From Antedon mediterranea (lineage: Eukaryota; Echinodermata; Crinoidea; Comatulida; Antedonidae): a stretch of 64,000 nt of DNA. This document shows positions 2,410 to 47,155 of this stretch, piece after piece (within the stretch, counting starts at the first letter, position 1; each line of letters starts with the position of its first letter). Location of the stretch: assembly GCF_964355755.1 (NCBI RefSeq), contig NC_092674.1:8687001-8751000 (forward strand), written 5' to 3'. The notes beneath the pieces are model-generated. The model was not told where the DNA came from, did no database searches, and saw only the letters and a program-made list of their open reading frames with translations. The translations under genes and the position numbers were made by a program.

Positions 2410-2412
2410 AGC

Positions 2413-2700: not shown

Positions 2701-2726
2701 GATCTGGCTGTTCACTTACTACTACA

Positions 2727-5169: not shown

Positions 5170-5626
5170 TAAGAGAGGTCTTCCCACTTTCCTTTAACTT
5201 TTTGGCACCAGGCGTATTATAATAGTTGACTTTAATAACGCCGTACATTTCTAGCAATTGCTCTAAATGGCTGAATGAGTAACAAATGGTATTTGACTTG
5301 AATTATCATTGTGACCTAATTCTAAGTTTCCTAAGAACTGAGGTTGAGTGATTCCTCATGTGTTCTCTTTTCATCAAAACTTCAACATGATTCACTATAG
5401 AGTAAAGTTATACTGTATAGAGTTTATTTACATTAGTAGGTCAGCAATACTAATTACTAGGTCAATTAATACCCATATAACATGTCTCATGTCACAGCTT
5501 TGACTGCAAGGGCCTAATGAATTACAAATTGTCGCGCGATATAATCAAAAGTGAATATCATCTCTTGGTTTGGCTTAGCACACAGGAAAATAGCTGAATA
5601 AATGTTAATATTTTTTTATTTCCTAG
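5170..5626. other. Intron or 5' flank immediately before the first recognised exon
   Basis: AT-rich, no recognised exon or element. It ends in a polypyrimidine tract and CTAG acceptor at 5623-5626. Confidence 0.4.
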
Positions 5627-20600: not shown

Positions 20601-23600
20601 CATTGATGTTTGGAGGAGGATCGTCCACCTCTTTGACCTTTGCGTCTGTCACAGCTGGCAAACAAAATACTCCAGATTTTATGAAACAACGTAATTCACT
20701 TTTTACTTCTAACTTTTTACAATTAACTCGGTACTCATTTGTTAATAGAACAACTTAAATAATAAAGTTCACTATTATTTATTATTCATTATTTCAGAAT
20801 CTGCAAAGGCATTCTCTTGGACAAGTGCTGGCGCACAGCTGTTTAGCTCTAGTGCAGGAGGTGATGATGAGTACGACCCACATTATGAAGCTATTGTGAC
20901 TTTGCCTGAAGTTGTCGATCTTAAAACTGGAGAGGAAGACGAAAAATGCCTTTATAAAGATCGTGCCAAACTGTACCGATTCAACAAAGATATAAACCAG
21001 TGGAAAGAGCGTGGAGTTGGAGATGTCAAATTCATGCAGAATAAGAACACTGGTAGGATACGTGTGCTAATGCGTCGTGATCAGGTATTGAAAGTGTGTG
21101 CTAACCACATGATCACAGCAGACCTTGATATGAAAGCTATGCAGTCATCAGATCGTGCCTGGGTCTGGAGTGCACTTGATTTCTCTGAAGGAGAAGCGCA
21201 AATGGAGCAATTGGCAATCAAGTTCAAGAAGCCAGAAATGGCAAAGGAATTTAAAGAGAAGTTTGATGAGTGTAAAGTCCTTGTTAAAGAAGCAGAAACA
21301 AAAGCAAATGAAAAGCCGGAAACTAAAAAGATCCCAGAAAAACCAAAAGAGGTTTGTACATTATTTAGCTTTAATGGGGAACTGAAAGTGTCTTCTGCCT
21401 GATAATGTTTTACAAACATTTTTATATAATCTTCGTTAAATGAAAATGATAATACATATACTTTATAATTATCCATAATTTACGATTATTAATTAGTTTT
21501 TGAATGTGTAGTGTATAATGTAGTTATCAGAGATTATGATATTTGTCTTCAAAGAATTTCATATGTTACATTAATGTTTCTATTTTAAACTTTTCCTGAT
21601 TAGACTTTTGCTGACAAGTTCAAACCAAAAGCAGGAACATGGATATGCGACACTTGTCTTGTTAACAATCCTCCTGACACAGTTAAATGTCTTGCTTGTG
21701 CTACACTCAAACCAGGAGCAGCACCACCTCAATCGGCAGCTGCATCAACTAAACCTTCCGGAGCTACTGGATTCAGGTTTGATGGTCCAACTAGTTCACC
21801 ACAAACTTCAAAATTCAGTTTTGGTGGAGGTTCTGGTCCTGCAAGTGATGTTAAATCTCAGTCTGGTTTTTCTTTTGGAAAGCCAGCAAATGTTGCAGAC
21901 AGTAAACCTTCAGAATTTTCTTTTGGAAAGTCCACTGGTGGTGCTGCTGCTCTCCCCTCCACAGGCTTCTCATTCGGACAAGCTAGTGGTACGCCTACCT
22001 CAGGCTTTTCTTTTGGTAAAACTGATGGTAATAAAGCAGACTCAACAACTAGCAAGCCATCTGGGTTCTCTTTCGGCCAGACAAGTGACAGTAGTCAGCA
22101 ACCACCAACTGGTGGATTTTCATTTGTTGCTGATTCAAGTAAAACAGCATCCCCAGTCCAATCGAAAGCAGCACCTGCTGTCACTACTGATGTTACTGCT
22201 GAAAAATCAATGGTAAACAATTTCAATATTCTTTCAATATAATATATTTTGTTCCGTAAAACAATAATACTATTTTGCTTTGATGGCCAATTGGGAGATA
22301 ATTTCTTTTTGATGCGTCATGGTTCCGACAAAACACTTCCCAACTCTTTTATTATTTAGTACATAAATATAATACCTTTATTAATTATCTTAACACTTTT
22401 TAGACTTTAGCAGAACGATTAAAACCTAAACCAGGATCCTGGTCTTGTCCTACATGTTACTGCCAGAATTCTGCCGAACAGAAGAAATGTCCAGCATGCC
22501 AAACCTGCCAACCAGGTAGTCAACCAGAAGCATCTAGTTCAACTGCACCTTCTAGCAGTTCTTTCCAATTTGGCAGCAGTTCAGCTTTCGGACAGTTGCA
22601 AGGAAGTAGCCAAGAAGGTGCTGTGGCACCAACAACACCTACAAAGACTTTCTCATTTGGTTCTTCTGGAAAGGTATTGCCGCAATTCTCTTTTGGTGAA
22701 GGTGGTGAAACTACTGGCGCCACTTCAAAACCCGTCTCAACTGGATTTACCTTTGGGGCAACACCAGCATCCAGTGGATTCATATTTGGAAATAACCAGA
22801 ATCAAAATGCATCCGAAGAACAAGCTCTTGATCTTTCATCACCAAAAAAGACAGGCAGCCCAAGCTGTAAATTTTCAGAGATACCAAAATCATTCACCTT
22901 TCAATTCAAAATGGATCCTTATGAAGCAGCAAATGCACCACCAGCATCTCCAACAAAATCACCTGGTATTCAGCGATCACCTGGTCTAATCAAATCACCA
23001 GGTCTAGATAAGTCAGGAGATGATTCTTATTACAAAGATGATGACAATGATGGTCTGCATTTTGAGCCAGTTGTTCAACTTGATCTGGTGGAACTTACAA
23101 CCGGAGAGGAAGATGAAGAAGCAGAGTTTTGCCATCGAGCAAAGATGTATCGATATAACAAGGAAACCAATGAATGGAAAGAACGTGGTTTGGGTGATAT
23201 TAAAATACTAAGACATAAAGTAACTGGACTATACCGCCTTTTAATGAGACGAGAGCAAGTTCTGAAGTTATGTGCAAACCATTTCATTCTCCCAGAGATA
23301 GTTCTTCGGCCAAATTCAGGTTCTGATCGGTCTTGGGTCTGGACAGCAATGGATGCTTCTGATGATGGACAAGTCAAATCTGAATTGCTGGCAGTTCGTT
23401 TCAAGACTGCTGAGACTGCTACTGAATTCAAAGAAGCATTTGAAAATGCAAAGGAAGCTGTCAAGAAGATTAAGAGTATTAAGAAGTCTGAGCCAGCAGA
23501 AGTAAAAGAGACACAGGAGATAAATAAAGATGAAGTGAAGGAGATCGAAAATGAAGAGGTAACAGAAGACCAAAAAAGGGAGGAAGTTGAAGATGATGAA

Positions 23601-24498
23601 GAATATGAAGATGACGACGATTATGAAGACTATGATGATGAAGATGATGATGACAATGATGGTGAAGATGACAATGTTGATGAAGATGTAGAAGAGGAAG
23701 AAAAACCGAAAGAATCTCAGGAGGAAAAAAAATTAGAAAAGCAGGAAGAAAAACAGGAGGAAAAGCCAGGAAACACAAAAGATAATACTGCAGGTATTGT
23801 TTGTTATTCCTTACGTATTAAATGTAGTTGTATAAGCCTAATTCCATATTTTTTCTAAGCCAGATTGGTGTACATAACACTTTTATTTTAATGTTTTCTC
23901 TTTAGCTGCTGCTGCACCTAAATTAACATTCAGTTTCGGAATGGACTTTGCATCGGCAGTCAGAAAATCAATGAACGAAGATAAAACTAAGCCCAGCTCA
24001 ATATTCAGTCCTGAAAAGAATTCTGGTTCCAGTCCCAATAAAGGTTCTGATCAAGGATTTTATCCAGAAGAAGAACGGGATGATCTGCAGTTTAAACCAG
24101 TTGTCACCTTGCAAGAGGTGGAGGTAAAGACTGGTGAAGAAGAGGAAGAACAGTTGTTCTGTCAACGTGCTAAGCTTTTCCGTTGGAATCGTGACGAATC
24201 CCAGTGGAAAGATCGTGGCGTTGGAGAGATTAAGATCTTAAAACACAATGTCTTGAATCGATGTCGTATTTTAATGCGCAGAGATCAAGTATTGAAAATA
24301 TGTGCCAACCATATCATCACACCAGAGATGGAGTTAAAACCAAATGCAGGGTCTGACAGATCCCTTGTTTGGAACGCTATGGATGCATCTGAAATGGAAC
24401 CGCAATTGGAACAGCTGGCTGTAAGGTTCAAAACTTCGGATATTACTTCTGAATTTAAATCAGTCTTTGAAAAATGTCAAAAGAGTCCAACCAATTAA
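5627..24498 (+). CDS. RANBP2: RanBP2/Nup358-like nucleoporin, copy A (5'-partial, 23 exons)
   Basis: Cytoplasmic-face nuclear pore protein that binds Ran-GTP and, in vertebrates, acts as a SUMO E3 ligase. Exons: 5627-5689, 6065-6226, 6612-6772, 7210-7336, 7738-7882, 8249-8328, 8626-8767, 13505-13692, 14312-14490, 14808-14931, 15272-15387, 16342-16402, 16727-16864, 16987-17136, 17558-17788, 18030-18242, 18683-19937, 20251-20490, 20586-20690, 20798-21351, 21604-22212, 22404-23793, 23906-24498. Every junction is AG/GT and codon phase is kept throughout, giving 2341 codons plus stop. Order: helical solenoid, coiled coil, FG region, IR repeat, RanBD1, two RanBP2-type zinc fingers with FG repeats, RanBD2, acidic linker, RanBD3. 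The extreme N-terminus (about 150 residues by comparison with the vertebrate protein) was not found upstream. Vertebrate RanBP2 has four RanBDs, more zinc fingers and a C-terminal cyclophilin domain; here there are three RanBDs, two fingers and no cyclophilin. Family assignment is very secure; exon edges come from reading, not transcripts. Confidence 0.93.
9737..10101 (-). mobile_element. LTR of a nested retroelement (3' LTR on the minus strand)
   Basis: A 365-bp segment bounded by TGTCA and TGACA on the + strand. On the minus strand it is preceded by the purine-rich AAAAAGGGGAA, a good polypurine tract placed directly before the LTR. It contains a tandem TTTATCTACTCTGATCTTAT repeat near 9865-9925. 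The other LTR is not clear; only a short AATAATATGACA match ends near 11142. Confidence 0.6.
10202..11056 (-). pseudogene. Internally deleted gag-pol frame of a Ty3/gypsy-like LTR retroelement
   Basis: A 284-codon minus-strand frame. The first about 230 residues are gag-like: acidic and coiled, then [20 protein letters not shown] and a helical end. From about residue 232 it reads [16 protein letters not shown], the RNase H region of reverse-transcriptase polyproteins, ending NADGLSRA. The protease, zinc knuckle and nearly all of the reverse transcriptase are missing, so a large deletion has joined gag to the RNase H end in frame. A likely start is the internal methionine of [11 protein letters not shown] near 10975. 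Such an element cannot move by itself. Confidence 0.75.
11995..12417 (+). other. Intronic stretch between transposon and minisatellite
   Basis: No exon recognised. Contains GTGTCC-type short repeats near 12025-12110 and otherwise anonymous sequence inside the intron of copy A. Confidence 0.4.
12418..13388. repeat. 80-bp minisatellite, 12 copies
   Basis: Twelve head-to-tail units of exactly 80 bp (one with 6 extra bases near 13172) containing CAGTTCCACACTCCCTAACA, CATAAGATCAATGGACTG and CCTTGGCAAGGCAAGCT. Units are almost identical; one has a C-to-T change near 13063. The array ends 116 bp before the acceptor of the 13505 exon. Confidence 0.97.
13955..14265 (-). repeat. tRNA-derived SINE (minus strand)
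   Basis: On the minus strand a degenerate tRNA head with B-box-like GGTTCGAATTCC lies near 14198-14210. The body leads to an AAGCGCTTAGAAGCATTGTG segment, AAGCGCTATATA, and a tail of TGATTATTATT repeats. It is inserted in the intron between 13692 and 14312. Confidence 0.7.
15510..16018. mobile_element. Nested TIR element with a tRNA-Val-like core
   Basis: Ends CTCGGGGTAC and GTACCCCGAG, flanked by TA on both sides (15508-15509, 16019-16020). Length 509 bp, no coding content. It carries a tRNA-Val-like sequence on its minus strand at 15852-15922. Confidence 0.65.
15852..15922 (-). pseudogene. tRNA-Val(AAC)-like sequence
   Basis: The minus strand reads GGCTTCTTGGCGTAGTGATT then ATCACGTTTGCTTAACACGC and GGTACCTGATTCGAGCC, closely following the layout of tRNA-Val with an AAC anticodon. 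Acceptor-stem pairing is imperfect and the T-arm differs from consensus, and it sits inside a transposon. It is a tRNA-derived relic, not a trusted tRNA gene. Confidence 0.55.
17195..17300. mobile_element. MITE fragment, copy 3 of the AAGCTCTGTCTACA family
   Basis: Contains TTCTGTTTACACTATCAAAC and CCCATATATGGACATGATGA in the reverse arrangement of the full copies. It is in the intron after exon 16987-17136. Confidence 0.6.
18030..19937 (+). other. RANBP2: RanBP2 coiled coil and FG-type linker (copy A)
   Basis: Exon 18030-18242 is a heptad-like coiled coil ([20 protein letters not shown]). Exon 18683-19937 opens with [11 protein letters not shown], almost identical to the vertebrate [10 protein letters not shown] anchor. 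It continues as a Pro/Ser/Thr/Gln-rich disordered region with scattered FG, FxFG and GFSFGGG motifs, as expected for a nucleoporin that contacts transport receptors. The long antisense and other-frame reading frames over this exon are composition shadows. Confidence 0.88.
18328..18540 (+). repeat. tRNA Ser/Leu-derived SINE
   Basis: Head reads GAGTGGCCGAGCGGTTAAGA, a good A-box of class II tRNA type, with a degenerate B-box (GGTATGCTCGAAAT) about 50 nt later and an unrelated body. Located in the intron between the coiled-coil and FG exons. Confidence 0.65.
20251..20490 (+). other. RANBP2: SUMO E3-ligase internal repeat (IR) exon of RanBP2, copy A
   Basis: This 240-nt exon encodes one IR unit: an acidic-hydrophobic stretch DDVILIYE, which fits a SUMO-interacting motif, then [20 protein letters not shown]. 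The vertebrate IR1 and IR2 repeats share the [16 protein letters not shown] pattern and bind SUMO and Ubc9. Only one repeat is present, and it lies before the first RanBD, whereas in vertebrates the IR pair lies between the third and fourth RanBDs. The unusual CPGCIGCED tail after the repeat is unexplained. The exon starts and ends in phase 1. Confidence 0.85.
20586..21351 (+). other. RANBP2: RanBD1 exons of RanBP2, copy A
   Basis: A short FG-containing exon (20586-20690) is followed by exon 20798-21351 carrying a full Ran-binding domain of about 120 residues. Hallmarks in order: [52 protein letters not shown] and SSDRAWVWS. The domain binds the Ran-GTP surface and the acidic Ran C-terminus in known structures. 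A lysine-rich tail ([17 protein letters not shown]) leads to a GTTTGT donor. The 107-bp intron between the two exons is the unoccupied version of a site that holds a transposon in unit C. Confidence 0.92.
21604..22212 (+). other. RANBP2: Zinc finger 1 and FG exon of RanBP2, copy A
   Basis: Starts [13 protein letters not shown], then a RanBP2-type zinc finger with W-x-C-x2-C-x10-C-x2-C spacing ([11 protein letters not shown] ... KCLAC). In vertebrates such fingers bind Ran-GDP or COPI. The rest is a phenylalanine-glycine repeat field with GFSFGK, EFSFGK, GFSFGQ and GGFSF motifs. Exon is 609 nt, phase 0 to 0, a symmetrical unit that can be duplicated without frame damage; that fits its multiplication in unit B. 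Confidence 0.9.
22404..23793 (+). other. RANBP2: Zinc finger 2, FG region, RanBD2 and acidic linker (copy A)
   Basis: A 1390-nt exon. Zinc finger: [12 protein letters not shown] ... [11 protein letters not shown] motifs follow ([24 protein letters not shown]). RanBD2 starts near [20 protein letters not shown] and includes [29 protein letters not shown] and GSDRSWVW. After it comes a Lys/Glu helix and a long run of Asp/Glu/Tyr, then a Lys/Glu tail. Acidic linkers beside RanBDs occur in the family, but this one is unusually long. The repetitive GAT/GAA codons make it prone to length change. Confidence 0.9.
23906..24498 (+). other. RANBP2: Terminal exon with RanBD3 (copy A)
   Basis: Encodes a short FG segment ([17 protein letters not shown]) and a third Ran-binding domain: [66 protein letters not shown]. 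It ends [10 protein letters not shown] and stop. A GTAAGT lies 3 nt after the stop and a poly-T tract with CAG at about 24652, so the 3'UTR is probably spliced. No cyclophilin domain, further RanBD or IR repeat follows. Confidence 0.88.
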
Positions 24499-24652
24499 AG
24501 TAAGTTGCTCATCATATACTCCTTATAGGCTCATTCACTAAAACACCTTTCCTACCCCATCAATGTTGCAATCAAAGTATGGCAATCCTTCATGATGAAT
24601 GTTTTCAAACACATTTGTGTTATAAATCTGTTTGATGTTTTTTTTTTTTCAG

Positions 24653-26948: not shown

Positions 26949-26972
26949 ATGGGATGGCATCTAAAGAATTGA
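26949..26972 (+). other. Seven-codon uORF overlapping the TRIM start (unit B)
   Basis: GCCATGG at 26946-26952 is a strong initiation context 5 nt before the TRIM ATG and in another frame; it stops after seven codons at TGA 26970-26972. Unit C lacks this extra ATG. Confidence 0.6.
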
Positions 26973-27325
26973 TTGAAGTAATTGATGCAGCAGCACTTGA
27001 GTGTCCTTTATGTATGAACCACTTCACAAGCCCAAAGATTCTAGCATGTGTTCATTCATTCTGTCTTGAGTGTCTTGAGAAATGGATGAAGAAAAGCAAT
27101 GGTGTACTCAGCTGCCCAACATGTCGTGAAGTCTGCCAGATTCCAGAAGGAGGACTTCAAAACTTGAAGAATAACATATTCATCAGTGGCTTGTTGGACT
27201 ATGTCACTACATTAGAAGAGAAGACCGCTCCAACTTGTAGTCTTTGTAGTACAGCAACATGTTTCTGCTGTCGAGATTGTGATGAACAAATTGCACGTCT
27301 TGCAGAGATATCCATGCAAAAATGA
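26954..27325 (+). pseudogene. RING and partial B-box of a TRIM-type E3 ligase (unit B, frameshifted)
   Basis: A 123-residue frame with a complete C3HC4 RING (CPLCMNHF, CVHSFCLECL, SCPTC) and the start of a first B-box (CSLCSTATCFCCRDCDE). Compared with unit C, the next stretch has lost the B-box cysteine and histidines and is one base short, so the frame ends at TGA 27323-27325, overlapping the ATG of the following frame (27322). Either this is a truncated RING protein or, more likely, the 5' part of a broken TRIM gene. TRIM RING domains normally recruit ubiquitin E2 enzymes. Confidence 0.75.
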
Positions 27326-28465
27326 AGATATCACAACATCATCGCATCATCACGATGGAAGAATATACTGTTATCAACCCTGTGGAACATTTGGCTTCTA
27401 AATCTGTATATTGTTGCAACCATAATATGCCACTTCATTTCTTCTGTGGCAGCTGTAAGGTTCCAGTATGTGTAGGCTGTACATTAGTGGAACATCCAAT
27501 ATCTGATGGTCATAACATAATAAATATAGAAACTGCATTTGAGTCATTCGCAAAACTTTCAGAAAGTTTTATAAATAAAGCAGAAGAAAATTTGATTAAG
27601 TTTCATGACATTGCAAAGCAACTCAAAATAAAAGAGGAATTGGAAATGTCTAATTACAAAGAGTGTGAAGTAAAAATCACAGAAGAAGCTAACAAGGCAC
27701 ACCAATTGATTGATCGTTATAAGAAAGATCAACTCCAAGACCTTGAATCATCTCACCAACACAATCTTAAGTTAATCAGTGCCAATGAAAGTGAGGTTGA
27801 ATTGGCTATTGCTAAATTTTCTAGTACACAGGGAATTGTACGTACCTTGATACATAGCCCAAACCATGCTATGGCATTAAGATCAAGTTCTGATGTTACC
27901 AAACGAATGGACGAGCTTGTAGAACAAGATAACATTTCTGATGATATTCTCACACCAAATTTGGTGAAATATAAGAATACCAGATTTGAAGTGAAGACTG
28001 TTGATATTTTACATGGCAATGATGATTATGAAGCGATCATGACTTTACCAAAAGCCAGTCTAAAGACTGAAGATAGAATCAAAAACTGGTTATGGAAAGA
28101 TCTTGCCAAGTTGTGGACTTTCAACAAGGATACATATCCAAAGTGGAAAGAACATGAAGGTCATGTTGTCACATTTTGTCATACAAACTCTGGTAAGATG
28201 CAAATGTTAGTATTGAAAATTGAAATCTGTATTAGTCAGACAGTCACAGCAGACAGTGAGATGAAAGCAGTGAAGTCATCAGGACATGCCTGGGTCTGGA
28301 GTGATGCGGAAATGAAGAAATATGCACTCATATTCAAGGAGCCACAGTTCGCAAGAAAAATTAAAGATGATTTTGACGAGTATAAAAAGCTTGCTAATGA
28401 AGTAGAAGTAACAGCAAATGAGAAGCAGCAAACAAAGAAACAACCAAAAGAAACAAACAGAAAAG
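27322..28465 (+). pseudogene. B-box 2, coiled coil and degenerate RanBD in one exon (unit B)
   Basis: A continuous 381-codon stretch. It holds B-box 2 (CNHNMPLHFFCGSC, CVGCTLVEH, DGHNI), a TRIM coiled coil of about 150 residues and, with no intron between, a RanBD relative (YEAIMTLP, KDLAKLWTFNKD, WKEHEGH, SSGHAWVWS, FDEYKKL). The RanBD resembles RanBD1 of copy A most, including the ANEK-TKK tail and GTTTGT donor. The WKERGxG and LMRR motifs are lost, so Ran binding is doubtful. The donor at 28465 is phase 1, unlike phase 0 in copy A. The upstream frameshift makes the whole gene probably non-functional, though this frame alone is intact. Confidence 0.7.
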
Positions 28466-28589
28466 GTTTGTAAATTTATTACTTTATTAAGTACCTTTAT
28501 CTCAAACCCATTGCTTAAACATAGAAAGGGGAGAGAGGGATGTTAAGTTAATGAATGAAATTCTATATTCACAAATTAATTAATCTATT

Positions 28590-28858
28590 TTAATCATTCT
28601 GTTCCGGACAGTCTACTAGTGGTACCACTGCCTCCTCTCGAACCACAAGCTTCCGATTTCGACAGACTAGTGTTTTGCCTACCTTTTCTTTTTGTAAAAC
28701 TACTACAGCTATAAAACCTTGCTTCTCTTGGCAGCCAACAACTGCTAGTGACAGCCAACAAACTACTGGAATTTCATTTGATGTTGATTCAACTAGTAAA
28801 GAAGTGCAACAGAAAGCATTACCTGATTCAGCTGGTGTTAATTTTGGCAAATCAATGG
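28590..28858 (+). pseudogene. FG-region exon fragment (unit B)
   Basis: Degenerate FG-type sequence (TFSFCKTTTAIK, GVNFGKSM) ending at a GTAAAT donor-like site, matching the 3' end of the zinc finger 1/FG exon. The zinc finger itself is missing and the 5' boundary gives a stop in the expected phase. Confidence 0.55.
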
Positions 28859-29022
28859 TAAATAAAATGTAACTTTCTTCCCAGATACAGTATGTTCTAT
28901 AAGATAATGGTGATGGTTTATTTTATAATTAATTTGAACTGTAGTTATTCAGAGATAATGACAGTCTTCAAAGGATTTCATATGTTACATTAATGTTTCT
29001 ATTTTAAACTTTTCCTGATTAA

Positions 29023-29619
29023 ACTTTTCCTGACAAGTTCAAACCAAAAGTAGGAACATGGACATGCGACACTTGTCTTGTTAATAATGCTCCTGACACA
29101 GTTAAATGTCTTGCTTGTGCTACACTCAAACCAGGAGCAGCACCACCTCAATCAGCAGCTGCATCAACTAAACCTTCCGGAGCTACTGGATTCAGGTTTG
29201 TCGTTCCAACTAGTTCACCACAAACTTCAAAATTCAGTTTTGGTGCATGTTCTGGTGCATGTTCTGGTCCTGTAAATGATGTTAAATCTCAGTCTGGTTT
29301 TTCTTTTGGAAAGCCAGCAGATGTTGCAGACAGTAAATCTTCAGAATTTTATTTTGGACAGTCCACTGGTGGCTCATTCGGACAAGCTAGTGGTAAGCCT
29401 ACCTCAGGCTTTTCCTTTGGTAAATCTGATGATGGTAACAAAGCAAACTCAACAACTAGCAAGCCATCTGGGTTCTCTTTCGGTCATACAAGTGACAGTA
29501 GTCAGCAACCACCAACTGGTGGATTTTCATTTGTTGCTGATTCAAGTAAAACAGCATCCCCAGTCCAACCGAAAGCAGTACCTATTGTCACTACTGATGA
29601 TACTGCTGAAAAATCAATG
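29023..29619 (+). pseudogene. Zinc finger 1 and FG exon (unit B) with destroyed acceptor
   Basis: 199 codons in phase 0: [14 protein letters not shown] ... KCLACATLK finger followed by FG motifs (SGFSFGK, EFYFGQ, GFSFGKSDD, GFSFGH). The acceptor that reads GATTAG in copy A and unit C reads GATTAA here, so normal splicing into this exon is not expected. The donor ATG/GTAAAC is intact. A short GGTGCATGTTCT duplication is present near 29244-29266. Confidence 0.7.
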
Positions 29620-29810
29620 GTAAACAATTTCAATATTCTTTCAATATATTTTGTTTCGTAAAACAATATCACTATTTTGCTTTGATGACCAATTGGGAGA
29701 TAATTTCTTTTTGATGTGCCATGCTTCCTACAAAACACTTCCCAACTCTTTTATTATTTAGTAAATAAATATAATACCTTTATTAATTATCTTAAAACTT
29801 GGTATTTCAG

Positions 29811-30248
29811 ATTTTAGCAGAACGATTAAAACCTAAACCCGGATCCTGGTCTTGTCCTACATGTTACTGCCAGAATTCTACCGAACAGAAGAAATGTCCA
29901 GCATGCCAAACCTGCCAACCGGGTAGTCAACCAGAAGCATCTAGTTCAACTGCACCTTTTGGACAGTCCACTGGAGGTGCTTCCCTCCCCTCCACAGGCT
30001 TCTCATTCGGACAAGCTAGTAGTAAGCCTACCTCAGGCTTTTCCTTAGGTAAATCTGATGATGGTAACAAAGCAAACTCAACAACTAGCAAGCCATCTGG
30101 GTTCTCTTTCTGTCATACAAGTGACAGTAGTCAGCAACCACCAACTGGTGGATTTTCATTTGTTGTTGATTCAAGTAAAACAGCATCCCCAGTCCAACCG
30201 AAAGCAGCACCTATTGTCACTACTGATGTTACTGCTGAAAAATCAATG
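29811..30248 (+). CDS. Hybrid zinc finger 2 / FG exon (unit B)
   Basis: 146 codons, phase 0 to 0, with acceptor TTTCAG and donor GTAAAC. The 5' half is the zinc finger 2 exon start ([30 protein letters not shown]); the 3' half is the FG tail of the zinc finger 1 exon ([26 protein letters not shown]). The exon arose by recombination between neighbouring zinc-finger exons, probably at the shared [16 protein letters not shown] codons. Whether it is expressed depends on the damaged upstream exons. Confidence 0.65.
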
Positions 30249-30438
30249 GTAAACAATTTCAATATTCTTTCAATATATTTTGTTTCGTAAAACAATATCA
30301 CTATTTTGCTTTGATGGCCAATTGGGAGATAATTTCTTTTTGATGTGCCATGCTTCCTACAAAACACTTCCCAACTCTTTTATTATTTAGTAAATAAATA
30401 TAATTAATTATTAATTATCTTAAAACTTTGTATTTCAG

Positions 30439-31572
30439 ACTTTAGCAGAACGATTAAAACCTAAACCAGGATCCTGGTCTTGTCCTACATGTTACTGCCA
30501 GAATTCTGCCGAACAGAAGAAATGTCCAGCATGCCAAACCTGCCAACCGGGTAGTCAACCAGAAGCATCTAGTTCAACTGCACCTTCTAGCAGTTCTTTC
30601 CAATTTGGCAGCAGTTCAGCTTTCGGACAATTGCAAAGAAGTAGCCAAGAAGGTGCTGTAGCACCAACATCACCTACAAAGACTTTCTCATTTGGTTCTT
30701 CTGGAAAGGCATTTTCACAATACTCTTTTGGTGAAGGTGGTGAAACTACTGACGCCACTTCAAAACCTGTCTCAACTGGATTTACCTTTGGGGCGACACC
30801 AGCATCCAGTGGGTTCTTATTTGGAAATCTTTCATCACCGGAAAAGACCGGCAGCCCAAGTTGTAAATTTTCTGAGATACCAAAATCATTCACCTTTCAA
30901 TTCAAAATAAATCCTCAGGAAGCAGCAAATGTACCACCAGCATCTCCAACAAAATCACTTGGTATTATTCATTTTGAGCCAGTTGTTCAACTTGATCTGG
31001 TGGAGCTTACAACTGGAGAGGAAGATGAAGAAACAGAGTTTTGCCATCGAGCAAAGATGTACCGATTTAACAAGAAAACCAATGAATGGAAAGAACGTGG
31101 TTGCGGTGACATTAAAATACTAAGACATAAAGTAACTGGACTATACCGCCTTTTAATGAGACGAGAGAAAGTTCTGAAGTTATGTGCAAACCATTTCATT
31201 TTCCCAGAGATAGTTCTTCGACCAAATTCAGGTTCTGATCGGTCTTGGGTCTGGACAGCAATGGATGCTTCTGATGATGGACAAGTAAAATCTGAATTGC
31301 TGGCAGTTCGGTTTAAGACTGCTGAGACTGCTACGAAATTCAAAGCAGCATTTGAAAATGCAAAGGAAGCTGTCAAGAAGATTAAAAGTATTAAGAAATC
31401 TGAGCCAGCAGAAGTAAAAGAGACACAGGAGATAAATAAAGATGAAGTGAAGGAGATCGAAAATGAAGAAGGAACAGAATACCACAAAATGGTGGAATTT
31501 AAAGAAGATGAAGAATATGAAGATGACGACGACGATGATTATGAAATAATTAAATTTATCTTTGATTTATAA
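30439..31572 (+). pseudogene. Zinc finger 2, FG region and RanBD2 (unit B), 3' end replaced
   Basis: Starts [13 protein letters not shown] with the CPTCYCQN finger, then FG motifs and a near-complete RanBD2 ([57 protein letters not shown]). Compared with copy A it lacks a stretch of about 50 codons before the RanBD. The acidic linker is cut after EDDDDDDYE at about 31548, where foreign sequence adds a few residues and a stop. LINE sequence follows. Confidence 0.7.
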
Positions 31573-37959: not shown

Positions 37960-38990
37960 CCTTTTATGTAAATGGTGACGTTTTTTTCCATATAAAATAA
38001 AAGCTATACATTTTAAAGTAAAACTGGTGTGTGTATGTATGGCTACGTATCAGTTGGCAAATGAGATTGTTTTCTAATGTATTGAAAAGCTCGCAATCCT
38101 GTCGGTGAAAGCATCTAACAGTTGGAATGTATAAGGCTTAATTTAGGCTAGTGTCTTACCGTAATCATTCACAACAAGTAGCTGATAAATACCAAGTATT
38201 TATAAGAGACACTAGCTGCCCAACATGTCGTGATGTCTGCCAGATTCCAGAAGGAGGGCTTGAAAAGCTACAGAACAATATGTTCATCAATGGCTTTATT
38301 GGACTATGTTACCACATTGGAACGGAAGACCGCTCCAAATTGTAGCCTTTGTAGTACAGAAGCAAGTTTTTTCTGTCGTGACTGTGATGAGTTATATTGT
38401 ACAAGTCACAGAAATGACCACACAAAAATGAAGATGTCACAACATCATTGCATTATTACAATTGAAGAATATACTGTTATCAATCCTGCATAGTACATAA
38501 GCTGTTGACTGTTTCTACATTAGCTGGTGTTGATTTTTATTTACTACATAAGCTGGAGGTTTTACTACATAAGCAGAAGATTGCTCTACATTAACGGTTT
38601 TTTCGACATTAGCTGGCGTTTTCTACATTAGCGGTTGTAACAAGCCTTGTGTGGGGTATGTATGATAATAATATATGCAGAAATAAGAAAAGTATAATAT
38701 GCATATGATATTGAATGTAGTGGACACATCAAAACATTAAAACTAATGTCTCTTATAAATACTTGGTATTTATCAGCTACTTGTTGTGAATGATTACGGT
38801 AAAACACTAGCCTAAATTAAGCCTTATACATTCCAACTGTTAGATGCTTTCGCCGACAGGATTGCCCGCTTTTCAATACATTAGAAAACAATCTCATTTG
38901 CCGACTGATACGTAGCCATACATACACCAGTTTTACTTTAAAATGTATAGCTTTTATTTTATATAGAAAAAACGTCACCATTTACATAAA
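37960..38990. mobile_element. Foldback element with about 245-bp inverted repeats enclosing a TRIM fragment
   Basis: The left arm (about 37962-38208: TTATGTAAATGGTGACGTTT ... TATTTATAAGAGACA) and right arm (about 38746-38990) are near-perfect reverse complements. The loop holds a RING/B-box fragment (38213-38490) and a short tandem field of TACATTAGCTGG-like words (38500-38630). It lies in the probable 5'UTR intron of the unit C gene. Confidence 0.85.
38213..38490 (+). pseudogene. Captured RING-end/B-box 1 fragment
   Basis: Matches 39975-40250 of the unit C TRIM exon almost base for base (CTGCCCAACATGTCGTGATG, then the CSLCSTEASFFCRDCDELYC codons). One extra T near 38294 shifts the frame. 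It starts and ends abruptly at the arms and repeats of the foldback element. Confidence 0.85.
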
Positions 38991-39800
38991 AGGGGGAATC
39001 CCGGATTATTTAGTTTTAGCGGCAGCGCCTGCATGGCATGCGTGCAGCTCAATGCGATTGTTTCTTCCAGCCAAAACAAATATCGGTTAATTTTTCAACC
39101 AATAAAAGTGCGCATGATCAGTTATTACCAAACAACCAGATGCCCAATCACATTGCAACAATTTTCACGTCGCATTTATCCAATAATTATCTGATTTGAA
39201 TGAGAAAAAAAAGAATTTCCGCGTAATTGATTGAACCCTCTTCTTGAATATTTGGACAAACAAATAAACAATGCATCGCGCGTCATAGCATGTTTATTGA
39301 ATTCTTCAACTACAGTTTAAGTTTTAAAAAATCAAGCTAAGATACATAAGTTGATAGAAATACAGATCTATTTATCAACATAGTACTGTAATGTTGAACG
39401 CATTTTTGTTTGCGCTAGCAACCACGCAGCGCCATCTATCATTGTGACGTCACACTGCAGAACTCTATAAATCCTGACGTATGCAGTGCCCTACTGCATG
39501 GAAAACATTACTGTTGCACGAAAACAGCGGATTGCTCATTCTTCTGATATATACTGTATTCTTTGCCCTATATATAGGGTACTACTGTACTAGGAACTAC
39601 TACTAGGCATGCTGAAACGACGCAGGGTATGGAACGCCCACATTATGCGCCAACTAGGCCAAATATTTATGTTATATGTTAATTTCGCTTGGTATTTCTA
39701 ATTATGTATAAACTTTGCTCTATCAATGGAAAGATCTATAAGAAATGTATGAGTATAATAATTAGTTTAATTTATTATATAAAACTTTTACTTTTCACAG
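38991..39800 (+). promoter_or_regulatory. Remainder of the unit C leader region
   Basis: 38991-39580 holds no recognised feature. 39582-39730 matches the leader of unit B (GGAACGCCCACATTATGCGC, GGCCAAATATTTATG). A pyrimidine tract and CACAG acceptor end at 39800, 16 nt before the ATG. Confidence 0.5.
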
Positions 39801-39816
39801 GATTTTTTCATCTTCC

Positions 39817-42800
39817 ATGGCATCTAAAGAAGTAATTGAAGGAATTGAATCTGCTGCACTTGAGTGTTCTTTATGTATGAACCGCTTTACAAGACCAAAA
39901 GTTCTGACATGTGTTCATTCATTCTGTCTTCGATGCCTTGCGGAATGGGTGAAGAAAAGCGATGGGGTGCTCAGCTGCCCAACATGTCGTGATGTCTGCC
40001 AGATTCCAGAAGGAGGGCTTGAAAAGCTACAGAACAATATATTCATCAATGGCTTATTGGACTATGTTACTACATTGGAACAAAAGACCGCTCCAAATTG
40101 TAGCCTTTGTAGTACAGAAGCAAGTTTTTTCTGTCGTGACTGTGATGAGTTATACTGTACAAGTCACAGAAATGACCACACAAAAATGAAGATGTCACAA
40201 CATCATTGCATTATTACAATTGAAGAATATACTGTTATCAATCCTGTAGAGCGTTTGGCTTCTAAATCTGTATATTGTTGCAACCATAATATGCCACTTC
40301 ATTTCTTTTGTGGCAGCTGTAAGGTTCCAGTATGTGTAGGCTGTACATTAGTGGAACATCCAATATCTGATGGTCATAACATAATAAATATAGAAACTGC
40401 ATTTGAGTCATTCGCAAAACTTTCAGAAAGTTTTATAAATAAAGCAGAAGAAAATTTAATTAAGTTTCATGACATTGCAAAGCAACTCAAAATAAAAGAG
40501 AAATTGGAAATGTCTAATTACAAAGAATGTGAAGTAAAAATCACAGAAGAAGCTGACAAGGCACACCAATTGATTGATCGTTATAAGAAAGATCAACTCC
40601 AAGACCTTAAATCATCTCACCAACACAATCTCAAGTTAATCAGTGCCAATGAAAGTGAGGTTGAATTGGCTATTGCTAAATTTTCTAGTACACAGGGAAT
40701 TGCACGTACCTTGATACATAGCCCAAACCATGCTATGGCATTAAGATCAAGTTCTGATGTTTCTGAACGAATGGACGAGCTTGTAGAACAATATAACATT
40801 TCTGATGATATTTTCACACCAAATTTGGTGAAATATAAAATTAACACACACCAAACCATCATTGTTAACGCCGCTGACTTTAGAATTGAACATGCTGATG
40901 CCCCAAATTTAACAAATCCTCAACCTGTTATGTATTACCCACCACACACACCAATGTTTCCCCCTCAATTCATACCAGGCTATCTACCGGAAATTCCAAT
41001 ACCTGGATTGGGGGAACAGCAATACATACCTTCCATGATGAGCTCAACCCCGGGACCACACTATCAAGGAGAGGAAGCATACGAAGCAGAAGGTGATGCG
41101 TATAATATAGATCCGCATGTGTCACTAAAACTGCGAGACAACAATGTGTTCTCCACCCCAGCACGCAATATTGCACAGAGTAGAACACCAGAGGCTAGTA
41201 TTTCTTCAGAATCCACACGTATTGATGAAAGATTTGCAGGCTTCTCTGGACTCAATCAAACAGGAATGCCTCAAGTGGCACCAAATGGAAGTGCTGGCAT
41301 GAAACCTTCCATCTGCCAACCAAAACTTAACATATCACAACCAGCATCCTCACCAGTTGCTGTGAGTAAAGATGAAACTGCTCCAGAGAGGTCTGCCAGT
41401 GATGCTCCATTGTTACGTAAAATACTAATAGGGTCAGATGTTGACCCACCTCCTGTTGTTACACAATCTTTTCCTGCTTTCTCATCTGTTTCTTCAAACT
41501 CCAGGTTTGGCGGAGGAGACAAGTTATCTGAAAAATCTGCTGTTTCGCCTAATTTTACATTTGGTACTCGTCTGGAGTCTGCGAAAGCAAAAGAAGCTGA
41601 GCATACTCCAGTTTTCACTCCAAGTGCATCTTTTGGAAGTAAATCTGATGCAAGTGGAAACCCACAAACAGTAACCTCTGGCTTTTCATTTGGAGGTGGT
41701 AATATCTTTACCCCAGTGCCTACTAATCCAGCTTCAACCATCCAGTTCAGTCAATCCTCTTCTATATTCAACCAACCAGCAGCTCAGCCCACAAGCAGAG
41801 GACCTTTTAGTCAGCTAGTAGCAGCTACTGGTTTCAAGGGTCTCAATTCTAACTCAACAAAGGAATTTTTGCTGGGCTTAGTTTTAGGTGCTCAAACCCC
41901 ACCAACAGCAGCACCTCAGCCTAGAAAACCTACCGAAGGCTCTTTATTTTCAGGTCAGGAGTCTGTAGTATCCAGTTCAACCTCAAAAAGCAGCGGTTAG
42001 TTTTTTGTTCTATTTTTCTTTTATTGCTTAAATAAGGGAGTATATAAATGTTAATTGATCAACAAAATCTTCACCAATATGTTGAATAATAAAAACCTGC
42101 ATCTTCTCCACATACAGTAGGTAAAAAATGATGGAGTTACATATTGAAAATCTTCCAAATAGTATATTGTTATGCAGTATATAGATATATCTAATGATTT
42201 GAAACTGTTTTCCTTAAGAAGATCTGACAAGCAAGACCCAGTTGGCTTGTGCTGCAATGAACAATTTTCTTAACCCCATTTAATTGTACTGTCTTATTTT
42301 TTAAATCAGAGGAGGATGATGTTATATTGATTTATGAAAGAAAACCAACTCCAGCACAGATTGCGATGGCTCTCAGATTGAAGCTGCCTCCAACATTCTA
42401 TCTCTATGAATACAAGAAACCGTGCCCTGGTTGTATTGGTTGTGAAGATATCAATCTGGCAATGTTGTATAAAAAGGAAAACAAAGTTTTCAAAGATGCC
42501 ACTCAGGCCAGTACTACTATCTTGCAAGACCCTAAACCAACACAAGAATGTAAGTTTTTCGTATATACAGAAAAATGTTTTTGAAAGGTATTTTTAGACC
42601 TTGTTTATATTTAATTTTTTATATATATATATATATATTCTTTTTCAGCAACTTCTACAGAACCATTGATGTTTGGAGGAGGATCGTCCACCTCTTTGAC
42701 CTTTGCGTCTGTCACAGATGGCAAACAAAATACTCCAGATTTTATGAAACAACGTAATTCACTTTTTACTTTTAAATTTTTACAATTAACTCGGTACTGA

Positions 42801-44250
42801 TTTGTTAAAAATGTATTGTCCCCAAAAAACATGAAAAATGAAGATTAATTAAATCAGATTTGAATAGGTTATTTTGTAGTTTTAATAAAGTTAATCACCT
42901 CCGTAGAAAAAAATAATGTTTTCACTTATAACATAACATAATAAATAAATTACAGTTTTTTTCAGATAAATAAATTTTGTTTAGATCCAATTTTTTTTCA
43001 AAAGCCCCTTTCTCACAGAGCTGTGTGCCAGGAATATTGCGGGAATATACCATTACCATGCCGGTATGGTTTTCTGTGAGAACGGGTCGTCTTGGCATCA
43101 TGCCGGCATCGACATGACCTGCTTTAGACCTGTAATATTCTAGGTATATTCTGTGAGAACGTAACGCTGTTATATTCCGGGGTTATATTTAATTCCTGGT
43201 CGAGTCTTTGACACCTTGCGCGGTCAAATGTATCACTTTGGCGCCGATTCAATTCAATTAACAATAATAATGTCGAACTGGAGGGATAATGAGATAAGAG
43301 ATGTGCTTAAATAAGGCGACAAAAAGAAATTTGTAGCATAATTTATAGGCCTAGCCTCTAGGCCATAGCTCTTTTGTTGGTGCCTGACCCTTTGTCACCT
43401 TGTAAATTGTACAGCCTTCTAAGGTGTTTTACATATTGCTGATGACGGCTAATTAATTGCTGCTGGCTGTACCTGTATAATATATGCACAATATACTGTA
43501 CATAGCATGTATTGCATAAATATGCTATTAAGGAAGATAATAACCTGTAACTTAAAATAAGTACAAAAATACAACAACAAAAATAATAACAATAAAGGAC
43601 GCCCTCAATAATTATTTTGTCGGAGACTTTTATTGGCCGAATATGCCCGACTCCTTTCTCACAGAAAGCCAGTATATACCGGTTATATTTCCGGCACGAT
43701 AGTCCGATGAGAATGGGTATATGCGGGTAACGATACCGGCATGACGCCAACATAATACCGGTATATTGCAGGCACATCTGTGAGAAAGGGCTAAAGTGGA
43801 TAACTATTATGTGATATTAAAAAAAAATATTGTAAAAAATTTTTTAGGGGGACAATACATCTTTAATAGAACAACTTAAATAATAAAGTTCACTTTATTT
43901 CAGAATCTGCAAAGGCATTCTCTTGGACAAGTGCTGGCGCACAGCTGTTTAGCTCTAGTGCAGGAGGCGATGATGAGTACGACCCACATTATGAAACTAT
44001 TGTGACTTTGCCTGAAGTTGTCGATCTTAAAACTGGAGAGGAAGACGAAAACTGCCTTTATAAAGATCGTGCCAAACTGTACCGATTCAACAAAGATATA
44101 AATCAGTGGAAAGAGCGTGGAGTTGGAGATGTCAAATTCATGCAGAATAAGAACACTGGTAGGATACGTGTACTAATGCGTCGTGATCAGGTATTGAAAG
44201 TGTGTGCTAACCACATGATCACAGCAGACCTTGATATGAAAGCTATGTAA
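39817..44250 (+). CDS. TRIM::RanBP2 chimeric protein (RING, B-boxes, coiled coil, FG, SUMO-ligase IR, half RanBD)
   Basis: Exons 39817-41995, 42310-42549, 42649-42753, 43904-44250 join in phase to 956 codons plus stop. RING at residues 17-57 (C17, C20, C32, H34, C37, C40, C54, C57), B-box 1 about 95-121, B-box 2 155-187 (C155, H157, C165, C168, C173, C176, H181, H187), coiled coil about 190-335. At about residue 343 (base about 40845) the TRIM sequence turns in mid-exon into the RanBP2 FG exon (INTHQTIIVNAADFRIEHAD), which continues to the normal donor. Then come the IR SUMO-ligase exon, the small FG exon and the first half of RanBD1, ending at TAA after TADLDMKAM. The start MASKEVIEGIESAALE follows the acceptor by 16 nt. 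Predicted roles are inferred: RING ubiquitin ligase, TRIM oligomer, SUMO/Ubc9 binding. Expression is unproven. Confidence 0.85.
42310..42753 (+). other. IR SUMO-ligase and small FG exons in the chimera
   Basis: Nearly identical to 20251-20490 and 20586-20690 of copy A, with one Lys-to-Arg change in MALRLKLPPTF and an Ala-to-Asp change in SVTDGKQ. SUMO-binding-type DDVILIYE is intact. Splice sites are conserved, including the TA-repeat polypyrimidine region before 42649, which has gained TA units. Confidence 0.85.
42809..43862. mobile_element. piggyBac-like element in the chimera's intron, with nested MITE
   Basis: Ends AAATGTATTGTCCCC and GGGGGACAATACATCT, with TTAA at 42805-42808 and 43863-43866. 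The matching intron of copy A has a single TTAA at the same place (near 20742-20745) and no insert, so the boundary is exact. No transposase frame; contains the 43009-43793 element. Confidence 0.88.
43009..43793. mobile_element. Nested TIR element with CCGGTAT words
   Basis: Left end GCCCCTTTCTCACAGA, right end TCTGTGAGAAAGGGC. Interior repeats TGCCGGTAT-like and TCTGTGAGAACG words on both sides. The minus-strand frame 43777-43358 is not gene-like. No clear target duplication seen. Confidence 0.65.
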
Positions 44251-44527
44251 AAACCAAAAGAGGTTTGTACATTATTTAGCTTTAATGGGGAACTGAAAGT
44301 GTCTTCTGCCTCATAATGTTTTACAAACATTTTTATATAAATCTATATTTATATAATATATATAAATGAAAATAATAATACATATACTTTATAATTATCC
44401 ATAATTTACGATTATTAATTAGTTTATTAATGTGTAGTGTATAATGTAGTTATTCAGAGATTATGACATTAGTCTTCAAAGAATTTCGTATGTATTAATG
44501 TTTCTATTTTAAACTTTTCCTGATTAG

Positions 44528-45139
44528 ACTTTTGCTGACAAGTTCAAACCAAAAGCAGGAACATGGACATGCGACACTTGTCTTGTTAACAATCCTCCTG
44601 ACACAGTTAAATGTCTTGCTTGTGCTACACTCAAACCAGGAGCAGCACCACCTCAATCGGCAGCTGCATCAACTAAACCTTCCGGAGCTACTAGATTCAG
44701 GTTTGATGGTCCAACTAGTTCACCACAAACTTCAAAATTCAGTTTTGGTGGAGGTTCTGGTCCTGCAAGTGATGTTAAATCTCAGTCTGGTTTTTCTTTT
44801 GGAAAGCCAGCAAATGTTGCAGACAGTAAACCTTCAGAATTTTCTTTTGGAAAGTCCACTGGTGGTGCTGCTGCTCTCCCCTCCACAGGCTTTTCATTCG
44901 GACAAGCCAGTGGTACGCCTACCTCAGACTTTTCTTTTGGTAAAACTGATGAAGGTAATAAAGCAGACTCAACAACTAGCAAGCCATCTGGGTTCTCTTT
45001 CGGCCAGACAAGTGACAGTAGTCAGCAACCACCAACTGGTGGATTTTCATTTGTTGCTGATTCAAGTGAAACAGCATCCCCAGTCCAACCGAAAGCAGCA
45101 CCTGCTGTCACTACTGATGTTACTGCTGAAAAATCAATG
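44528..45139 (+). CDS. Zinc finger 1 and FG exon (unit C)
   Basis: 204 codons, phase 0 to 0, with intact TTAG acceptor and GTAAAC donor. Encodes [13 protein letters not shown], the CDTCLVNN ... CLAC finger and FG motifs as in copy A. It lies after the TAA that ends the chimera, so it is read only if that stop is bypassed or another start is used. Confidence 0.65.
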
Positions 45140-45330
45140 GTAAACAATTTCAATATTCTTTCAATATAATATATTTTGTTCCGTAAAACAATAATACTAT
45201 TTTGCTTTGATGGCCAATTGGGAGATAATTTCTTTTTGATGCGTCATGGTTCCTACAAAACACTTCCCAACTCTTTTATTATTTAGTAGATAAATATAAT
45301 ACCTTTATTAATTATCTTAACACTTTTTAG

Positions 45331-46030
45331 ACTTTAGCAGAACGATTAAAACCTAAACCAGGATCCTGGTCTTGTCCTACATGTTACTGCCAGAATTCTG
45401 CCGAACAGAAGAAATGTCCAGCATGCCAAACCTGCCAACCAGGTAGTCAACCAGAAGCATCTAGTTCAACTGCACCTTCTAGCAGTTCTTTCCAATTTGG
45501 CAGCAGTTCAGCTTTCGGACAGTTGCAAGGAAGTAGTCAAGAAGGTGCCGTGGCACCAACAACACCTACAAAGACTTACTCATTTGGTTCTTCTGGAAAG
45601 GTATTGCCGCAATTCTCTTCAAGGTGGTGAAACTACTGGCGCCACTTCAAAACCCGTCTCAACTGGATTTACCTTTGGGGCAACACCAGCATCCAGTGGA
45701 TTCATATTTGAAAATAACCAGAATCAAAATGCATCCGAAGAACAAGCTCTTAATCTTTCATCACCAAAAAAGACAGGCAGCCCAAGCTGTAAATTTTCAG
45801 AGATACCAAAATCATTCACCTTTCAATTCAAAATGGATCCTTATGAAGCAGCAAATGCACCACCAGCATCTCCAACAAAATCACCTGGTATTCAGCGATC
45901 ACCTGGTCTAATCAAATCACCTGGTCTAGATAAGTCAGGAGATGATTCTTATTACAAAGATGATGACAATGATGGTCAGTTTTTAGACTGGCTATTGCTT
46001 CGTAATCATCATCGCCATTTAAGATATTAA
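45331..46030 (+). pseudogene. Zinc finger 2/FG exon (unit C), frameshifted and truncated
   Basis: Starts [18 protein letters not shown] with an intact finger. A net 5-bp loss near 45617 (CTCTTCAAGG versus CTCTTTTGGTGAAGG in copy A) shifts the frame; the following FG and Pro/Ser region is otherwise well kept. RanBP2 similarity stops at GACAATGATGGT near 45976, just before RanBD2 should begin. About 55 bp of unknown sequence leads into a TRIM fragment. Confidence 0.75.
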
Positions 46031-46032
46031 TG

Positions 46033-47155
46033 AAGAGTCACAACATCATTGCATTATTACAATAGAATATACTGTTATCAATCCTGTAGAGCGTTTAGCT
46101 TCTAAATATGTATATTGTTGCAAACATAATATGCCACTTCATTTCTTTTGTGGTAGCTGTAAAGTTCCAGTATGTTTAGGATGCACACTTGTTGAACATC
46201 CTATATCTGATGGTCATAAAATAATCAATATAGAAAATGTATTTGAGCTATTCACAAAACTTTCAGAAAGTTTTAATTGCAAAGCAGCTGAAAGAGAAAG
46301 AGGAATTAGAAATGGTGAATTACAAAAAGTGTGAAGCAAAAATCACAGAAGAAGCTGACATCAATTGATTGATCATTATAAAAAAGTCCAACTGCAATCT
46401 CTCGAATCATCTCACTGGGTCCGTGGAGGGCCTAATCCAGTTAAACTTGATGACCAGTAATAATACATTTAACATTTAATCAGTGCCACTGTAAGTGATG
46501 TTGAATTAGCGATTGCTAAATTTTCCAGTATGCAGGGAATTGCACGTACCTTGATACATAGGCCAAACCATGCTATGGCACTAAGTTCAAGTTCCGATGT
46601 TTCTAAACAAATAGGCCAACTTGACAAACAACGTAACATTTCTGATGATATGCTCACATTAAATTTATCTGAATACAATAATACCAGATTTGAAGTGAAG
46701 CCTGTTGGTATTTTACACGGCGATGATTATAAAGCAGTAACCATGCCTAAAGATGGTCTAAAAACTGAAGAGGAAAGTGAAAACTGTTCTTTGAAAGATC
46801 TTACCAACTTATGGTGTTTTAATAAGGATGAAAATAAGTGGATAGAATATGACGGTGATACTGTCAAATTTATTCATACAAAGAAAACTGGTAGGATGGA
46901 AATGCAGATACTGAACATCAGTGAAAACAGCATAGTCACAGCAGACAGTAAGATAAAGGCTATTCCATCATCAGACCATGCCTGGGTTTGGAGTGAAGCA
47001 GGAATGAAGAAATATGCACTAATATTTAAGGAGCCAATATTGTTAGCACGAGAATTCAAAGAAAATTTGATAAGACGAAGAAAAAGCTTGTTAATAAAGT
47101 ACTTGAGGAAGAAAGGGTTCCACTTCTAGACCCCCTTGAGCCAGAAGAAAAGGTT
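46033..47155 (+). pseudogene. Second TRIM B-box/coiled-coil/RanBD fusion, degraded (unit C)
   Basis: Matches 27322-28465 but is more diverged. B-box 2 (HNMPLHFFCGSC, CLGCTLVEH) is recognisable. The coiled coil is broken by deletions and stops near 46300-46490, with an insertion around 46415-46475. From 46530 a 199-codon frame covers the coiled-coil end and the RanBD relative (FEVKPVGILHGDDYKAV, KDLTNLWCFNKDENKW, SSDHAWVWS, MKKYALIFKEP). One missing T near 47068 shifts the end; the shifted frame continues to a GAAAAG/GTTTGT donor near 47153. RanBD motifs WKERG and LMRR are absent, as in unit B. Confidence 0.75.

Follow-up and report, generated by a model that had tools for sequence, protein, structure and literature searches.

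Structure of the chimeric copy

We analysed a 64-kb window of the genome of the crinoid Antedon mediterranea (contig NC_092674.1, positions 8,687,001 to 8,751,000; coordinates below count from the first letter of this stretch), in which a RanBP2 gene (copy A) is followed by several copies that carry TRIM sequence (B to E). One of these, copy B, is a genuine in-frame TRIM::RanBP2 chimera, confirmed at the level of sequence. The layout was derived from self-comparison, Pfam scans, and tblastn searches that used the RanBP2 of starfish and of an acorn worm as queries; the Pfam scans covered plus-strand stretches up to 36 kb and between 38 and 47.7 kb, and TRIM and RanBP2 copies were surveyed within the window.

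Copy B opens with a 727-codon reading frame (39817–42000) that passes from a TRIM head into RanBP2 FG-region sequence. Joined at AG/GT sites, four segments (39817–41995, 42310–42549, 42649–42753 and 43904–44250) give a coding sequence of 956 codons plus a stop, and the acceptor of the chimeric exon is common to TRIM copy C. An initial annotation had described the 727-codon exon with its RING, two B-boxes and coiled coil leading into FG sequence, the in-phase splicing to IR and Ran-binding domain (RanBD) exons, and a full set of zinc ligands and fitting splice sites; the open frame, the Pfam matches, the ligand patterns and the joined exons all bear out that description. The features of copy B are listed below (ZnF, zinc finger).

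39801..41995, plus strand: chimeric exon; acceptor CACAG ends at 39800, ATG at 39817, donor GTTAGT at 41996
39817..40839, plus strand: TRIM half; RING 39865–39987, B-box1 from 40099, B-box2 40276–40377, coiled coil about 40390–40791
40839..40840: TRIM/RanBP2 junction, within both parental reading frames
40840..41995, plus strand: RanBP2 FG-region segment, a copy of A 18758–19937
42310..42549, plus strand: exon with the IR1 amino-terminal motif (DDVILIYE...LKLPPTF); matches Pfam IR1-M and human RanBP2 IR1 (3uin_D, 1z5s_D)
42649..42753, plus strand: small exon, a copy of A
42809..43862: intron insertion not in A, about 1.05 kb; inverted motifs near 43005 and 43789 (CCCTTTCTCACAGA/TCTGTGAGAAAGGG)
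43904..44250, plus strand: shortened RanBD exon; about 75 of 122 model positions ahead of the stop TAA at 44248–44250
44247..44249: deletion scar in the RanBD; 196 bp absent relative to A 21142–21337, one T inserted
44249..45977, plus strand: remaining ZnF/FG exons copied from RanBP2; splice sites retained, 5 bp lost from one of these later exons near 45620

The zinc-ligand patterns of the TRIM head are all complete, comprising a C3HC4 RING with eight ligands (residues 17–57), B-box1 from residue 95 and B-box2 from residue 154, with Pfam matches to the RING (PF15227, 1.3e-7) and the B-box (PF00643, 1e-5). The nearest solved structures in the PDB are the RINGs of TRIM2, TRIM3 and TRIM56, followed by TRIM28. 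An AlphaFold model of modest quality, built with ten sequences (mean predicted local distance difference test score 62.6, RING at low confidence), places a helix at residues 192–301 after strands that fit two B-boxes, and predicts in this way the coiled coil that completes the RING-B-box-coiled-coil (RBCC) arrangement of a TRIM protein. Four of 318 fold matches to the model reached E ≤ 0.001 (two chains of TRIM28 and two of the Toxoplasma conoid), with TM-scores that were all low.

Behind this head, the RBCC continues in frame into a later part of RanBP2, as in fusions of the zebrafish ftr52 type. The TRIM occupies the place of the amino-terminal TPR/helical region of RanBP2 (also called Nup358), which is the anchor of RanBP2 at the pore; the region is absent from B, whereas the parent A has helical exons. 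FG content is modest, with four FG motifs in 383 residues, two of them FxFG, and the same number in A. The Ran-binding domain is incomplete, since its Pfam match (4.7e-32) spans model positions 1–78 of 122 and the last three residues lie at or past the stop. A RanBD-cyclophilin end is likewise not found in B, its RanBD being cut and PF00160 going unmatched in the plus-strand stretches scanned by Pfam. The 1.05-kb intron insertion looks like a mobile element.

Parental copies and the junction

The other TRIM and RanBP2 copies in the window are as follows.

7208..24499, plus strand: copy A, RanBP2 gene; starfish and acorn-worm RanBP2 residues about 260–900 match exons 7208–18245; RanBDs, ZnF, IR
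26954..31572, plus strand: copy C; RING/B-box1 26954–27286, a one-base frame break, then TRIM(B-box2-coiled coil)::RanBD::ZnF::FG::RanBD
38214..38488, plus strand: copy E, a piece of TRIM sequence with 97.8% identity to B, flanked by inverted repeats
46029..47129, plus strand: copy D, TRIM::RanBD pseudogene with stops and frame breaks; same junction as C

Copy A is the parent of the RanBP2 half of B. It runs from helical exons at 7.2 kb through the FG exon (about 18671), IR (about 20253) and a RanBD (about 20880) to a ZnF and two further RanBDs ending at 24499; the first 260 or so residues of RanBP2 were not located in the window, and plus-strand Pfam scans of 8–9700 and 9501–16502 returned no domain at the cut-offs used. 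An array of tandem repeats of about 80 bp lies inside the gene at 12253–13518. No Antedon or Anneissia RanBP2 is among the matches listed for A (the best 120 of 436; 1241–3950 aa), and the Antedon protein is possibly missing from the database or modelled otherwise, though A looks like a working gene.

The junction is sharp: B agrees with C until about 40839 and from about 40840 with A (18758 onward), and one or two bases at most are common to both at the join. Compared with A over 372 codons, the RanBP2 portion of the exon has 5 synonymous and 14 nonsynonymous changes and four indels (−30, +21, −16 and +1) that together preserve the frame; across the introns and two exons that come next, 10 of 809 sites are different. 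The RanBP2 part of B has diverged from A by about 2%. Identity between B and C is uneven, reaching 93–100% in windows across 40209–40808 and 78–88% across 39788–40268, a pattern that points to gene conversion or to a mosaic TRIM half.

Because the RanBP2 part begins inside an exon of A with minimal shared bases, the join looks like illegitimate recombination in a tandem array and not like exon shuffling through introns. A break-and-join event in the cluster of RanBP2 and TRIM copies would have placed a TRIM exon in frame in the middle of the large RanBP2 FG exon and omitted the amino-terminal part of RanBP2; such a join has about a one-in-three probability of being in frame. Three other origins were rejected: a chance join of unrelated frames, by the ligand patterns and long identities; a retrocopy, by the introns retained in the copied RanBP2 part; and a single fusion event shared with C or D, by the TRIM sequence of these copies, which continues beyond the B junction into RanBD sequence.

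Copies C and D, which the initial annotation had omitted along with the RanBD deletion in B, share a TRIM::RanBD junction separate from that of B. In D the TRIM::RanBD stretch occupies 46029–47101. Synonymous divergence between them is 0.42 in the TRIM and 0.64 in the RanBD. The NCBI model P0003 (A. mediterranea) covers C at 27322–31569 with exon-by-exon identities of 99.3–100%. A one-base frame break at 27286–27292 parts the open RING/B-box1 from the B-box2-coiled coil; P0003 starts after this break and for this reason lacks a RING. Beside copy E, a 95% inverted repeat (37960–38215 and 38743–38993) abuts the TRIM fragment with its inner end and may represent an element with captured TRIM sequence. 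Frames on the minus strand at 32360–33359 resemble, by eye, a reverse transcriptase fragment of the long interspersed nuclear element type.

The IR exon

The Pfam IR1-M match in B (1.4e-6) covers model positions 1–28 of 61, and it ends at position 28 alike in B, A, Patiria RanBP2 and the Owenia model P0096 described below; in salmonid RanBP2 and salmonid fusions the match runs from 1 to 56–59. In phmmer, residues 4–65 of the B exon align with chain 1z5s_D of human IR1-M (E 8.8e-7), and both the SUMO-interaction motif and LKLPPTF fall within its alignment with human IR1. Asterias RanBP2 shares 55% identity with this exon over 60 residues. No IR2, the second repeat, was seen. From these alignments, binding of SUMO or Ubc9 by the exon is plausible and catalysis is conjecture; the label 'SUMO-ligase module' given to it initially agrees with the 1z5s_D alignment and, given the short Pfam match, was overstated. 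The IR precedes the first RanBD in A (20253–20491) and in two starfish, and lies between the third and fourth RanBDs in trout RanBP2 (P0029).

Similar predicted fusions in other phyla

A protein search for TRIM and RanBP2 domain pairs, proposed in the initial annotation, was carried out here. Among the best 120 of 436 matches to A, five combine a RING, a B-box and a RanBD in their Pfam annotation (P0043, P0045, P0056, P0091 and P0096), and hmmscan confirmed the domains in 5/5. They come from four salmonid species in three genera (Oncorhynchus mykiss, O. tshawytscha, Coregonus clupeaformis and Salmo salar) and from the annelid Owenia fusiformis. Among 75 matches to P0003, none besides P0003 itself has a B-box.

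As in B, the four salmonid models (P0043, P0045, P0056 and P0091) have a TRIM instead of about the first 971–978 residues of RanBP2, with FG sequence behind it. Their main alignment with trout P0029 begins after the TRIM, at residue 972–979 (three of four compared), and all four have a common junction position with near-identical sequence there. Unlike B, these predicted models ('E3 SUMO-protein ligase RanBP2-like', 2349–2740 aa) retain four RanBDs, ZnFs, IR1-M and cyclophilin A (CypA) and carry a PF25600 coiled coil; P0056 is flagged as low quality. Their predicted layout, a TRIM::RanBP2 fusion ending in CypA, resembles that of TRIMCyp in all three genera. Owenia P0096 also resembles B in having a RING and B-box followed by FG, RanBD and ZnF sequence, with no TPR found, but it is a predicted model of 3083 aa with five RanBDs and a Nup98 GLEBS motif (residues 923–960). 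It may combine TRIM, RanBP2 and Nup98 in a three-way chimera, or may result from a merged gene prediction.

In local alignments the TRIM halves of the crinoid, salmonid and Owenia fusions are only 24–26% identical to each other, whereas that of B is 71% and 52% identical to two crinoid TRIMs; PF25600 occurs, among these fusions, in the salmonid TRIM halves only. The low mutual identity of the TRIMs makes independent origins the simplest reading, and the crinoid, salmonid and annelid fusions probably arose separately. The salmonid and Owenia cases are gene models in which merged prediction is possible, above all for Owenia. We found no paper on a crinoid, annelid or salmonid TRIM::RanBP2 in the titles and abstract openings of the open literature searched.

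Precedents

The closest published case is ftr52 of zebrafish (Boudinot et al. 2011, PMC3137616), an RBCC-RanBD-CypA gene that is transcribed and in whose formation a RanBP2-like gene took part; in the open literature searched, this paper was the sole source for ftr52 and for the combination of TRIM, RanBD and CypA. Like B, ftr52 joins TRIM RBCC exons to a carboxy-terminal RanBP2-like part; unlike B, it belongs to the finTRIM subfamily of a vertebrate and ends in RanBD-CypA, and FG or IR sequence is not mentioned in the available text of PMC3137616. The earlier view that no TRIM with RanBP2 FG and IR modules had been described thus holds for ftr52 as far as that text goes, and has to give way to the extent that ftr52 is published and that salmonid and annelid models exist. 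A transient antiviral benefit of ftr52 is speculation of its authors (PMC3137616).

TRIM5-CypA (TRIMCyp) of owl monkey and macaques shares with B an RBCC with a swapped, captured recognition part and is of recurrent origin; in contrast to B, its cyclophilin A was captured by retrotransposition and its antiviral role is proven. Trim-NUP153C, which like B combines an RBCC with an FG-nucleoporin region, is a laboratory construct of TRIM5alpha and NUP153; this fusion of an RBCC to NUP153 FG sequence cuts human immunodeficiency virus 1 (HIV-1) 5–10 fold, and a piece with two FG motifs is enough against equine infectious anaemia virus (PMC3795039). Synthetic TRIM-RanCyp restricts HIV-1 (PMC5843284, PMC3751554). 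RanBP2 itself complexes with and SUMOylates TRIM5alpha, and this SUMOylation is required for restriction by TRIM5alpha (PMC6237768); PMC9334734 mentions RanBP2 zinc fingers and RanBP2-domain proteins.

Constraint, decay and alternative explanations

We read copy B as a real young chimeric gene copy that encodes an RBCC ligase with a RanBP2 FG and IR1 substrate end, a reading that we hold tentatively and at slightly below even probability. What the DNA itself shows is the sequence of B with its junction, an open frame that has the ligand patterns, the splice sites and the parent copies; that B is expressed, acts as a ligase, has binding partners and plays an antiviral role is inferred. The ratio of nonsynonymous to synonymous substitution rates (dN/dS) of the TRIM half against C is 0.22–0.23, a mark of past constraint that may predate the join. 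In neutral simulations of the FG exon, 5.1% of runs remained open with its four indels randomly placed and 18 substitutions, 1.7% with four random indels, and 58% with the 18 substitutions without indels, figures that carry ascertainment bias in that the locus was chosen for its open frame. In copy C, the fused frame is open across TRIM and RanBD for 383 codons (27322–28470), which neutral substitutions alone (0.20–0.25 changes per site) allowed in 0.04% of 5000 runs, a simulation that ignores gene conversion, signs of which are seen between B and C. The older C with its open frame suggests that the TRIM::RanBP2 combination has lasted in the lineage, and a B-box-coiled-coil::RanBP2 protein was probably useful there for some time.

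The bias and the gene conversion just named weigh against this reading, as do several observations. A T inserted at the 196-bp deletion (bounds taken from BLAST and direct sequence reading) creates the stop at 44248 and breaks the RanBD; the 'half a RanBD' proposed initially results from this truncation and is not a module, and a RanBD requires its full fold. The stop sits upstream of two introns with intact splice sites, which, if spliced, make nonsense-mediated decay likely. The comparison of the chimeric exon with A that had been suggested at the outset gave a dN/dS of about 0.9 for the FG half (the TRIM half was compared with C instead), and constraint is not clearly different on either side of the stop, with synonymous/nonsynonymous changes of 3/2 in the RanBD and 1/1 in the IR exon ahead of it and 2/5 and 2/1 after it. 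No database protein equal to B was found among candidates of 400–1272 aa, a weak point given that Antedon RanBP2 itself is likewise not among the matches listed for A. Such fusions are often lost: copy D is a pseudogene, ftr52 has a premature stop (PMC3137616), and Arg replaces the RING His in the O. tshawytscha model P0045. Synthetic TRIM-RanBP2Cyp did not restrict SIVmac (SIV, simian immunodeficiency virus) or the circulating SIVs tested (PMC5843284, PMC3751554). Among the salmonid fusions, the TRIM parts have a greater pairwise identity (91.3–97.1%, 316–336 of 346 residues) than the next RanBP2 stretch (84.1–93.5%), a point in favour of our reading that may nevertheless reflect FG regions evolving faster for general reasons. 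B may be a shortened working version or may possibly be starting to decay; its signs of decay fit either a shortened product or early pseudogenisation.

A serious rival, which we rate as a substantial possibility somewhat short of even, is that segmental duplication left B behind as a by-product without function, joined in frame by chance, so recent (about 2% diverged from its parent) that the frame has survived, already damaged in the RanBD and without a stable protein. The near-neutral FG half, the majority of substitution-only runs that stay open, the one-in-three chance of an in-frame join and the pseudogene status of the sister copy D all fit this account, as do the deletion with its stop, the further 5-bp deletion and the intron insertion. 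It sits less well with a TRIM half that is intact with its ligands, whereas C is frame-broken and D has stops, with a frame-restoring pair of indels (−16/+1) about 15 bases apart, and with the splice sites that have been kept.

That B is a dual-activity, SUMO-directed ubiquitin ligase, SUMOylating targets through the IR and ubiquitinating them through the RING, appears improbable. The kept SUMO-interaction motif and LKLPPTF, the 1z5s_D alignment of the B exon, its identity with Asterias RanBP2, and the need for RanBP2 SUMOylation of TRIM5alpha in restriction (PMC6237768) are in its favour, but the IR1-M match is short in B, A and Patiria as against salmonids, and IR2 is not seen. Less probable still, and in our view very unlikely, is a junction that is an assembly or haplotype artefact absent from the animal: the A and B blocks are 94–99% alike, a range in which misjoining of copies can occur, yet the window contains no N, nothing interrupts the exon that contains the junction, B carries an insertion and a deletion of its own, and separate TRIM copies, E and D, flank it.

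Implications

If copy B is the young gene copy that we favour, its product would, by analogy, be a soluble nuclear-pore mimic. The coiled coil would dimerise it, the FG and IR parts would bind partners that dock on RanBP2 (transport complexes, SUMO-modified proteins and viral capsids), and the RING would ubiquitinate what is bound. The recurrence of such fusions and the laboratory RBCC-nucleoporin fusions that restrict HIV-1 strengthen this decoy or restriction idea by analogy, and a restriction-type chimera is a reasonable but unproven role for B. The pattern is best read as a recurrent design, a RanBP2 bait on a TRIM ligase, of which the crinoid locus holds one old copy (C) and one young copy (B). 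A bolder proposal, which we consider unlikely, is that a TRIM head with a transport-factor-binding RanBP2 tail, its pore anchor lost, has been kept independently in echinoderm, chordate and annelid lineages as a soluble pore decoy armed with a ubiquitin ligase against viruses docking on Nup358; the locus in Antedon would then be a nursery of such genes, with the old C and the new RING-bearing B.

Fusions of the ftr52 type were already published; what is new is that one crinoid locus carries two separate fusions and that similar ones are predicted in other phyla. Primate TRIMCyp is a well-known restriction factor built by domain capture. If the TRIM::RanBP2 fusion does recur in crinoids, annelids and salmonids, which the salmonid models in three genera make directly testable, RanBP2 would be a second recurrent bait, and these genes would be the equivalents in nature of TRIM-RanCyp and Trim-NUP153C, which were made in the laboratory. 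Such recurrence would point to Nup358-using viruses far beyond primates.

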